Source of the DNA: Exophiala sp. HKRS030
Taxonomy: Eukaryota > Ascomycota > Eurotiomycetes > Chaetothyriales > Herpotrichiellaceae
Direction of reading: 5' to 3'
Assembly: GCA_023897205.1 (NCBI GenBank)
Contig: JAHWDD010000001.1
Span: 2,356,001 to 2,420,000, forward strand
DNA length: 64,000 bases
The notes under the pieces are model-generated. The model saw only the letters and a list, made by a program, of their open reading frames with translations, had not been told where the DNA came from and made no database searches. Of the stretch, positions 10,072 through 63,242 are shown piece by piece (positions within the stretch are counted from its first letter, which is position 1; each line of letters opens with the position of its first letter). The position numbers and the translations under genes were made by a program.

Positions 10072-10076
10072 AAAAA
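10072..10076 (-). terminator. Pol III terminator for tRNA-Gly
   Basis: On the minus strand this is a run of five T, starting 11 bases after the discriminator base of the tRNA-Gly gene. Further T runs follow at 10065-10069 and 10054-10060. A T run this close after the mature end is the normal RNA polymerase III stop and supports the tRNA being a transcribed gene. Confidence 0.7.
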
Positions 10077-10086
10077 TGAAGTGAGA

Positions 10087-10213
10087 TGCACGAACCGCGA
10101 CTACAAGTCGATGTTAGAAACGAATGCATCATCTCCAGCATTTCAACCACACTAACCTCGAACGCGGGCCCTCAGTATGGGAAACTGAGATTCTACCCTT
10201 GAACTATTCGTGC
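10087..10213 (-). tRNA. tRNA-Gly(CCC) interrupted in the T-loop
   Basis: Reading the minus strand from 10213: acceptor GCACGAA, D-arm GTTC/GAAT with the GG-containing loop AAGGGTA, anticodon stem TCAGT/ACTGA around loop TTCCCAT (anticodon CCC at 10179-10181, decoding GGG), variable GGGC, then T-stem CCGCG and TTCGAG. A 56-bp element (10101-10156) follows, then T, the T-stem return CGCGG, the acceptor return TTCGTGC and discriminator A (10087). All four stems pair, with only one G-T pair in the D-stem, once the insert is removed, giving a 71-nt tRNA with T-loop TTCGAGT. The A box fits consensus; the B box is cut after GTTCGAG. A T5 terminator follows 11 bases on. It could be a disabled copy or a gene needing an unusual splice; the intact stems favour function. 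Confidence 0.85.
10101..10156 (-). other. 56-bp intron-like insert in tRNA-Gly T-loop
   Basis: The insert begins GTTAGT and ends TTGTAG, with CTAAC about 12 bases before the terminal AG on the minus strand. These are the three signals of a fungal spliceosomal intron, and the length is typical. It lies after the sixth T-loop base, not at 37/38 where eukaryotic tRNA introns sit. Its GTTAG start can pair with its CTAAC, so a local hairpin is also possible. Confidence 0.75.
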
Positions 10214-10757
10214 CTGGACTCTCGGAGAAGTTTCCGGGTCGATTTAATCCTGACCAAAATCATAAGAATATTATATACATAACACTTTTGTGGCCGTCGA
10301 TATAACGGAACATGAGTGCCAGTTGTCGCAATCCACATTACTAGCGCATCGAATTGGATCGTGCATGTAGTCCAGACGTGTTATTCTCTACAATCAAAGT
10401 GATATGCAACCTACAGACGTAGCATGTACATGCCAGCAGCGGCTCAATGTCTTGGAACCAATTGAGATCAATACATTACTCAATGTCGTTGATTGGACAC
10501 CATCTGCTATCTGGGGCTGGTCCATCCACATCCAAGTATCAATCCCGCTGTATAGAGATATCAACCTCGAAGCACTAATGATACAATGCTGCAAGAATTC
10601 TTCCTTGGTCTTGCTAATCCATCCGCTTGATAGTTCAAGCTTATTGTAACCCAAAACAAACGCCTTGCTGGTATCATTTCATGAGTCATTTCCTTCTGCC
10701 TCCTGTTTTCGTCCGGATATACATTTCCTTCAGCGTAATCTCATCCACGTCGTTATT
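10214..10757. other. Intergenic stretch
   Basis: No recognisable gene between the tRNA-Gly 5' flank and the end of the Ulp1 gene. Short frames are present on both strands (for example 10394-10654) but show no domain or codon pattern I can support. Confidence 0.5.
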
Positions 10758-25998: not shown

Positions 25999-26101
25999 GG
26001 GAGGATGGCCGAGCGGTTAAGGCGCTGTGTTTAGGTCTAATCTTTTAACCTGAATCTATCCCGCAGTGGGAAACCTCGTGGGTTCGAATCCCACTCCTCT
26101 C
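25999..26101 (+). tRNA. tRNA-Leu(UAG) with a 25-nt canonical intron
   Basis: Acceptor GGGAGGA pairs with TCCTCTC (one G-T). The D-arm is GCC/GGC and the anticodon stem CTGTG/CGCAG. The loop has T-T-TAG-G, so the anticodon is TAG (26032-26034), decoding CUA. An intron of 25 bp (26036-26060) lies between positions 37 and 38, the standard site. A long variable arm (TGGGAAACCTC) marks a class II tRNA. The T-arm GTGGG-TTCGAAT-CCCAC is perfect. Discriminator A is at 26102. It is a normal comparison for the abnormal tRNA-Gly in this window. Confidence 0.95.
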
Positions 26102-26126
26102 AACTTGGTCAATAGCGACGACTTCC

Positions 26127-61400: not shown

Positions 61401-63242
61401 TCACTCATCGCCATCTGTCTCACGCTCTTCGAAACGCAGAAACTGTTCGGGATCTGTATCTGAACCCATGATAGATGTCCAAACCTCTTTTACCGAGGAA
61501 AGTACATCGTCAGGAAATGACAGATCATGGGCCCTGGTACCAAAGCAGAAGAGGTTAGACACTGGTTGCCGAACACCCGAGTCGTTCTGGGACCCATCTA
61601 GGGTTGGCGTCAAGGCCCGATATGTCATTGTCCAGAGAATTTTATTGTCAGCGCTAGAAGTTTCGAGAAATGATTCGACCGCAAGCTTCAAGTGTTTCTC
61701 AGCATCTTTCGCATTTGATGCAAGAGATCCATAGATGATACCTAATCAGTCGATGTTAGCAAGTGTTCGACAGCAGTGACTTCGACATGACATTGAGAGA
61801 TGACGGATTTCAGGTTGTCAGAGGATAGATATCAGCAAGGCACAAATGTGCTCAGGCAATGTAGATAAGTATTCAAAGTTGGATCATCATCTAGGCATTC
61901 AAGAGAGAGGGGAGTTGTCTTACATTGGCCAGCTGGGCATTCTCCTGTGTCCTCCGAATGAATTTGTAGGTATATCGGAGAATGGTCCGAGTTCTCGATA
62001 TCAGGTAAGTTCACCAACACGATTGCCACAGCAGGAGTTGGCCCATTGTCAGAAGTAGGAGGGAAGAGATCTCGCAGTGGATCGGCCACAACATTGATCG
62101 ATTTCCAGATGTTCGTAGCTTGAGCAGTCAGTGTCGAGTCCAGGACATCCAGGGGTACGTCGTCAACACTCCCCACGATAGCCTTAGACCTGATGAGTGT
62201 ATTGTCTGGCAAGGTGGAGTGGAACAAGATGCCGTCTTCGGTGCCTTCGGCTGAGATCCTCGGTGTGTCCGTCGCAGGCACATTCACGTTTCTCAGTTCT
62301 TGGCCCAAGAGATAGATCGCACCACCAACGGCTCCAGCACGGCAAGCGACTTGTGCGATTTCGGAGTTGCCACCATATTTGGCGACAACTGCTCCAAAGC
62401 CGGGGCCGAAATATCCTATAGAACGCATATGTCTTCGAATCCTTCTAAGCGCATCGACGAACGAGATAGAGGCGGCAGAGGACGTGGACAGCGCCAACGC
62501 AAGTATTGGGGCTTGAAGTGTGTCTCTTATCTTGAAGTCCCTTTTCAGAGCATCCTCAAGGGAAAGCGAAGGATCAGTCGCTACACTTTGTGTGTCCTCC
62601 TCTTCTTCCTGCAGCACGAATCGCAGAAACTTCATCAATCCACGTTTGTCCTTCATGGAAAGCGTCTCATCGTTGAAAACATCTTCACGAGTGCTAGGGA
62701 TCTTGTGTAGTGTTTTGTCACGGCATATCCACCATGAACCAACAGCGAGAAATTCTAGTTGGGTATGAATGCGAGAGGAGACAAGCGAGGGAAGGAAGGC
62801 GGATTGTGCGTAGATTATTTGAGGGTTCAGACTCAATGTGTATGCCCTCGAAGAAGCAAGCCGAGACTTTGGGCTGGGATCCGCAGACTGGTCATGCGTA
62901 GAAATCGAAGCCTCTTTGTAGACATGACTTGCACCTACCGATTGTGAGCAGAGCAGATTGAAACCATCAAGACATGCTGACTCTTGTTTACATTGTCCGT
63001 CCACTTCACTGCATCCTGCAGACTCAGGCCAGCATCCTCTCCACCATAGTAGTCATTACGATCGACATGCAGTATCTTCTTACCAGATCGTGAGAGTGCT
63101 CTGAGTGAGACGGCTTGGTCAGTCAGTTGGAGCCTAGGACCAAATGTGGATAGGGAAGTTTGGCTCACAATGCAAGAAGAGATTGGGGGATACTGGTTCC
63201 AGCAATCACGGCGTCCCAGACCTCCTCGGACAAACTGTCCAT
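61401..63242 (-). CDS. MRS6: Rab escort protein (Rab geranylgeranyltransferase component A)
   Basis: Five or more exon segments on the minus strand. The start at 63242 gives MDSLSEEVWDAVIAGTSIPQ and SLLAL; an intron follows, then ALSRSGKKILHVDRNDYYGG and LSLQDAVKWTDNVNK. Another intron (GTCAGC...GGTAG) leads to SASHVYKEAS, then SRAYTLSLNPQIIYAQSAFL and HTQLEFLAVGSWW. The body has YFGPGFGAVVAKYGGNSEIA and QVACRAGAVGGAIYLLGQEL, the GDI/REP sequence-conserved region. A strong donor GTAAGA at 61923 and acceptor at 61742 join CPAGQC to IIYGSLASNAKDAEKHLKLA, running to the stop at 61401. REP presents newly made Rab GTPases to the prenyl transferase, needed for all membrane traffic. Intact with this splice model, which removes an apparent early stop at 61832. 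Confidence 0.88.

Follow-up and report, generated by a model that had tools for sequence, protein, structure and literature searches.

At least five tRNA genes of Exophiala sp. HKRS030, namely two for tRNA-Gly(CCC), one for tRNA-Gly(GCC) and two for tRNA-Arg(TCT), carry six introns of the mRNA type between them, located at positions 11/12, 20/21, 46/47 and 59/60 of the tRNA and in no case at 37/38. The sequence contains the exon structure of these genes, compensatory changes between gene copies, shared insert positions, splice signals and runs of T. The arrangement is real and, within the literature covered, unreported: a single fungus has introns of the mRNA type in several of its tRNA genes. 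As the best explanation, these are probably working tRNA genes transcribed by Pol III, from which the spliceosome takes out the mRNA-type introns. The genome (59.8 Mb, 50 contigs) was sampled rather than subjected to a census: 63 of 1707 first-look tRNA candidates were scored, and mRNA-type introns were found in 5 of the 46 tRNA genes that make up the sample (42 from the first scan, a tRNA-His gene and three Gly genes). The coordinates of the features are given in Table 1.

Table 1. Location of the interrupted genes, their signals and related features; positions without a contig prefix are those of the window.
Feature	Position	Strand	Remarks
tRNA-Gly(CCC), exon 1	10157..10213	-	positions 1-59, from the acceptor 5' strand to T-loop TTCGAG
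mRNA-type intron, 56 nt	10101..10156	-	T-loop, 59/60; GTTAGT, CTAAC, TAG
GTTAGT, 5' splice-site-like	10151..10156	-	after exon GAG
CTAAC, branch-site-like	10113..10117	-	intron end 12 bases on
TAG, 3' splice-site-like	10101..10103	-	
tRNA-Gly(CCC), exon 2	10087..10100	-	T60, 3' strands of T stem and acceptor, discriminator A73
TTTTT, Pol III terminator-like	10072..10076	-	after A73 and ten bases
CTCCGAGAG in the tRNA-Gly(CCC) leader	10219..10227	-	at -14
Second, diverged tRNA-Gly(CCC) (L011)	C1:588513-588639		
tRNA with anticodon CCC, alternative Gly(CCC) (L114)	C7:1624436-1624538	+ (locus 101-203)	ordinary 29-nt intron at 37/38
tRNA-Gly(GCC) (L224)	C2:6935232-6935409	-	
tRNA-Arg(TCT) (L005)	C3:3291191-3291316	- (locus 1501-1626)	variable-loop intron, 46/47
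tRNA-Arg(TCT) (L120)	C3:1653175-1653312	- (locus 101-238)	variable-loop intron and 37/38 intron
U6 snRNA gene with 53-nt mRNA-type intron (L049)	C5:2143871-2144024	- (locus 1501-1654)	

The window, that is, the whole stretch of 64,000 nucleotides that was analysed, contains a tRNA-Gly(CCC) gene which the original prediction described as fully paired once 56 nt are removed from its T-loop, and this description was confirmed by the stem pairs, by ARAGORN and by Infernal. In the joined form the acceptor stem (7/7 pairs), the D stem (4/4, one of them G-U), the anticodon stem (5/5, flanking TTCCCAT) and the T stem (5/5, flanking TTCGAGT) are complete, A73 is in place and ARAGORN identifies a tRNA-Gly(CCC). 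The unjoined gene gives no ARAGORN call, and its best Infernal fit reaches 28.3 bits against a cut-off of 29. The splice signals ascribed to the insert, including the CTAAC 12 bases before its end, are present, as are the downstream run of five T, ten bases past A73, and an anticodon-loop intron in the tRNA-Leu gene of the window (25999-26102). Since AG is repeated at both borders of the insert, the cut can be placed in three equivalent registers, all rendering an identical product. It had also been claimed that introns of neighbouring mRNA genes bear the same signals, and this holds for one gene, encoding a Rab escort protein (61.4-63.2 kb), both tested introns of which (68 and 182 nt) have GT at the start, G at +5, CTRAY 7-20 nt before the end and AG at the end, the signal definition used throughout. 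The Rab escort protein is 99% identical to one protein without a name and mostly 56-64% identical to named proteins of Exophiala, Cladophialophora and other Chaetothyriales, which probably makes the organism a filamentous ascomycete close to this order.

A search with an anticodon-arm pattern rendered a second, diverged tRNA-Gly(CCC) gene with an insert of 55 nt (GTAGGC, CTAAT, AAG) at the identical T-loop position; the case extends beyond one gene. When the two genes are aligned, all 21 stem pairs are standard in each, and six pairs have changed both of their bases in a compensatory way: two pairs of the acceptor stem (columns 3 and 4), a stem that spans the insert, and four of the anticodon stem. 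This covariation was reached by 7 of 500 column shuffles, and structures slid along the alignment gave no double changes, in a comparison of two sequences only. The two inserts share 26 matches, against a shuffle mean of 22.4, with 182 of 1000 shuffles as high (54 of 200 when the splice signals were kept fixed), so that their likeness is not above that of shuffles. Because the exons have compensatory changes and the introns are no more alike than shuffled ones, the joined structure is under selection, and the insert, apart from its signals, is not. Of the two readings that had been put forward for the window gene, a Pol III transcript losing a GT-AG intron gains support, at the sequence level, from this further Gly(CCC) gene and from the other three interrupted tRNA genes. 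The other, an intron that landed in a tRNA gene and disabled it, is left unsupported by the shared insert position, the compensatory changes and the further intron-bearing tRNA genes.

The two tRNA-Arg(TCT) genes are independent support, again from sequence comparison, for the presence of mRNA-type introns in tRNA genes. They were selected by the splice signals themselves, both having already scored as tRNAs with large inserts. Their inserts, of 54 nt (GTAAGC, CTAAC, TAG) and 58 nt (GTAAGA, CTAAT, TAG), follow AGG, and Infernal also places both of them in the variable loop. The joined exons, with 21/21 pairs in each gene, differ in the acceptor stem only, where, across the insert, five pairs differ in both bases and a sixth in one base. 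Double compensatory changes thus amount to eleven, six in the Gly(CCC) pair and five in the Arg(TCT) pair. One of the two genes, L120, has a further canonical intron, of 8 nt, after position 37, and its precursor would depend on the spliceosome as well as on the tRNA endonuclease, which would link the capacity for mRNA splicing to decoding. Two tRNA-Arg(CCT) relatives have the same GG/TT variable-loop stretch (the slash marking the insertion point) without an insert, which would make them a natural test of intron gain.

A tRNA-Gly(GCC) gene, found via an anticodon-arm plus T-stem pattern, contains two inserts in its D arm, one of 52 nt in the D stem (11/12; GTATGT, CTAAC, CAG) and another of 55 nt in the D-loop (20/21; GTAAGT, CTAAC, TAG), separated by an exon of 8 nt. 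Removal of both inserts leaves a 71-nt tRNA-Gly(GCC) with 21/21 pairs, a result based on the fold of a single copy, whereas no tRNA is left if the 8-nt middle exon is removed with them. With only the second insert removed, ARAGORN still calls a tRNA-Gly(GCC), in which the last bases of the first insert serve as an acceptor strand, and the acceptor stem then has 4/7 pairs, against 7/7 when both inserts are removed. Six places were fetched in this search; the other five (L225-L229) were dropped by eye, only L224 being a tRNA.

Two further explanations can be weighed against these comparisons. It is very unlikely that the insertions broke the genes and left tRNA pseudogenes, other genes supplying the tRNAs. 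The gene L114, with anticodon CCC and an ordinary intron, speaks for such a supply, and because this gene exists its codon need not depend on the spliceosome; of the two things that together would count against the original prediction, one, another tRNA-Gly(CCC) gene, does exist in L114, with an ordinary 37/38 intron. Against loss of function stand the eleven two-sided compensatory changes in two gene pairs, the 21/21 pairs in all five genes, and the outcome of pattern searches, not exhaustive ones, in which neither Gly(GCC) nor Gly(CCC) came up as a gene free of interruption. An artefact of assembly or sequencing, which the use of a single assembly would allow, is extremely improbable, given that Gly(CCC) and Arg(TCT) are each represented by two loci whose inserts, although unrelated or diverged in sequence, occupy identical positions, Gly(GCC) being the one represented by a single locus.

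All six tRNA introns start with GT, end with AG and have CTAAY (CTAAC or CTAAT) 10-12 nt before the end. Their length, 52-58 nt, compares with the 53 nt of an intron found in a U6 gene of this genome and with the 68 and 182 nt of the two protein-gene introns. When all 255,770 window stretches with a length of 55-56 nt are considered, 30 fit the signal definition given above in any of three registers, a figure that is a guide and not a p-value because the thresholds were set after the first two introns were known and the Arg genes were found with them. In a strict excision scan, every signal-bearing stretch of 45-75 nt was removed from 358,794 (overlapping) bases, which are no random sample because they were mostly chosen around tRNA-like patterns. 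The 762 excisions rendered a joined tRNA in five places, which are the five genes described here, Gly(GCC) appearing in its poorer one-insert form. Mock signals gave 1 of 821 (inside L120, one of the five) and 0 of 1110 for the borders, and 0 of 850 for the branch motif. A looser scan, with 27,584 excisions, rendered seven matches in the same five loci, while its mocks gave 4 matches in 4 loci (of 40,673) and 13 matches in 6 loci (of 31,824); of these 17 mock matches, 6 come from cuts close to the 3' end of tRNAs that are intact, 8 are inside the five genes and 3 lie elsewhere.

The regularity of these signals bears on the enzyme involved. Canonical introns at 37/38 need no splice-site signals. 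If the inserts were excised by the endonuclease and ligase of tRNA splicing or by another nuclease, a route proposed for the ectopic ones of red algae and archaea, with the GT-AG and branch signals being incidental, the occurrence of those signals in six of six introns at a spacing of 10-12 nt would be unexplained, and we consider this route improbable. It has in its favour that anticodon-loop introns are common in this genome, the endonuclease thus being presumably active, and that ectopic D- and T-arm tRNA introns are described in Cyanidioschyzon and, in many cases without a defined bulge-helix-bulge (BHB) motif, in a cryptomonad nucleomorph. The 4-bp central helix of a BHB is absent from the two Gly(CCC) genes, the mRNA-type cases to which the test was applied, in all three registers. 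This weighs little, as the test is uninformative: only 2 of 33 canonical introns (those resolved by script among 36 genes tried) pass it at the exact register. Self-splicing introns of group I or II were discarded, 52-58 nt being too short and the window gene having no such match in Rfam. A copying family similar to introners was also rejected. Comparing the U6 intron with the six in tRNA genes, and these with one another, gave 21 pairs, of which the Arg pair stands out: 2 of 200 shuffles score as high, which is in line with paralogy. The pairs ranking after it had 10, 16 and 20 of 200.

Textbooks treat tRNA splicing, by an endonuclease and a ligase, as separate from mRNA splicing by the spliceosome, the normal substrates of which are capped Pol II transcripts. 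It could be imagined that Pol II makes these precursors, mRNA-like or embedded in a UTR, and that they are spliced as such and then trimmed to tRNAs. The spliceosome normally works in connection with Pol II, the promoter boxes of the genes are partly split and the window Gly(CCC) gene is flanked by two genes on the same strand, all of which would suit a Pol II origin, but runs of T are found after all five genes, those of the Gly(CCC) pair included, and an intron in U6, both here and in fission yeast (as far as the sources consulted extend), is a precedent for the splicing of a Pol III transcript; we regard a Pol II origin as unlikely. As to the promoter, the Gly(CCC) genes have, by reading, an intact A box and an intact GTTCGA core, with the last bases of the B box displaced by the insert, as the original prediction had pointed out. 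In Gly(GCC), also by reading, it is the A box that is split. The strength of the Pol III promoter is uncertain as a consequence of these split boxes.

The U6 gene that carries an intron has GTTCGT, CTAAC and CAG as signals, within ACAGAGAAG/ATTAGC (the slash again marking the insertion point). A second U6 gene (L048) is uninterrupted, and the scoring of 47 candidates out of 3456 gave no U6 gene besides these two. Two SRP RNA genes were also found, and they match their family model without a large insert, so that not every Pol III RNA in this genome is interrupted. In fission yeast and other fungi, mRNA-type introns occur in U6, a Pol III RNA (PMC10484740, PMC5832005, in the parts covered). Acceptance of Pol III tRNA precursors by the spliceosome of this fungus would be the simplest account. 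According to this account of spliceosomal removal, Pol III would transcribe a nuclear tRNA-Gly(CCC) gene the T-loop of which is interrupted by a short intron of the U2 type (GT-AG), the spliceosome would excise this intron as a lariat through CTAAC, thereby restoring the TTCGAGT loop, the ends would probably be trimmed after splicing, and the mature joined tRNAs would be charged and functional.

The fungal U6 introns, such as those of Schizosaccharomyces pombe, are similar to the tRNA introns described here in being short GT-AG introns with a branch site in a small structured Pol III RNA. They differ in that the host here is a tRNA, which has a splicing pathway of its own, in that several genes and positions are affected, and in that the insertions are not near a spliceosomal catalytic site. 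The introns of fungal U3 snoRNA, likewise removed by the pre-mRNA machinery from a small structured RNA, are not in a tRNA (PMC5832005), and that source, of 2017, in the portion covered, gave U3 and U6 as the only known cases of small structured RNAs in which introns are frequent. Canonical nuclear introns are at another position, 37/38; many of the tRNA genes here have one, and in L120 both kinds coexist. Introns outside 37/38, including some in the D and T arms, occur in tRNAs of Cyanidioschyzon merolae, archaea and the Guillardia nucleomorph, and in the covered parts of the corresponding papers those of a red alga and archaea are related to BHB motifs and to splicing endonucleases (PMC3978253, PMC4033280), many of the nucleomorph ones having no defined BHB (PMC3978253), and for the D- and T-arm introns of one red algal tRNA the order of removal is said to be all that is known of the processing (PMC9602550). 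The introns reported here differ from these ectopic ones in having GT, a branch site and AG, with a length of 52-58 nt. The sections of PMC11782384 and PMC8216456 that were covered make no mention of GT-AG introns in nuclear tRNA genes, and among the matches listed in a search of the open-access literature, subscription papers being outside it, there was no report of mRNA-type introns in tRNA genes.

Genes of this kind are easily overlooked, because ARAGORN misses or misreads all five in unjoined form: the two Gly(CCC) genes receive no call, Gly(GCC) is taken for a wrong tRNA, and both Arg(TCT) inserts are put in the anticodon loop, one of the genes being named Asn. It is likely that the nuclear tRNA genes of this fungal lineage gain and keep spliceosomal introns in the D arm, the variable loop and the T-loop, so that part of the supply of Gly and Arg tRNAs would be dependent on the spliceosome. 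If tRNA genes with GT-AG introns hold, tRNA output would depend on the spliceosome, and the survival of such introns through gene duplication would show the spliceosome serving structured Pol III transcripts beyond U6.

Pattern searches were directed at other Gly genes. None of the 70 sites with TCCCA...GTTCRANYC, all of which were fetched, appears to be an uninterrupted Gly(CCC) gene; one of them (L047) is the tRNA-His gene mentioned above, and the best of them (L087), with 9/10 stem pairs, 4/7 acceptor pairs and no ARAGORN call, was rejected. Among the 97 GTTCGAGGTNNGY sites fetched, the two Gly(CCC) genes reach 12/12 T-stem and acceptor pairs. The raw count is also 12 at L184 and L128, but these have inserts of 151 and 125 nt and stems rich in A-T or G-U, and were set aside by eye. 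L004, labelled Gly(CCC) by ARAGORN, has anticodon CCG in the stem scan, the reading followed here. Neither an uninterrupted Gly(GCC) gene nor a Gly(TCC) gene was identified with the patterns used, which, in the case of Gly(GCC), would miss genes with other T stems, other variable loops or 37/38 introns, and a pattern for another Gly T stem had no matches. The Gly(CCC) exon pattern had no matches in viral_contigs or genome_contigs, which is uninformative on related fungi because these collections comprise viruses, bacteria and archaea. Two tRNA-Arg(ACG) genes (L001 and L107) have the same exons and, by reading, an anticodon-loop intron apparently in only one of them.

The leader motif of the window Gly(CCC) gene, CTCCGAGAG, recurs in the leader of the second Gly(CCC) gene, at -16, and is absent from the 80 nt upstream of each of 43 other tRNA genes examined, the Arg gene L005 having a 7/9 match at -12. 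Both Gly(CCC) genes have a TATA-like motif, at -64 in one and -66 in the other, and so do 5 of 34 other tRNA genes in the same range. Finally, CTAACATCGACT, at 61748-61759 of the window, near the end of a Rab escort protein gene intron, recurs with all of its 12 bases in the intron of tRNA-Gly(CCC), possibly by chance.
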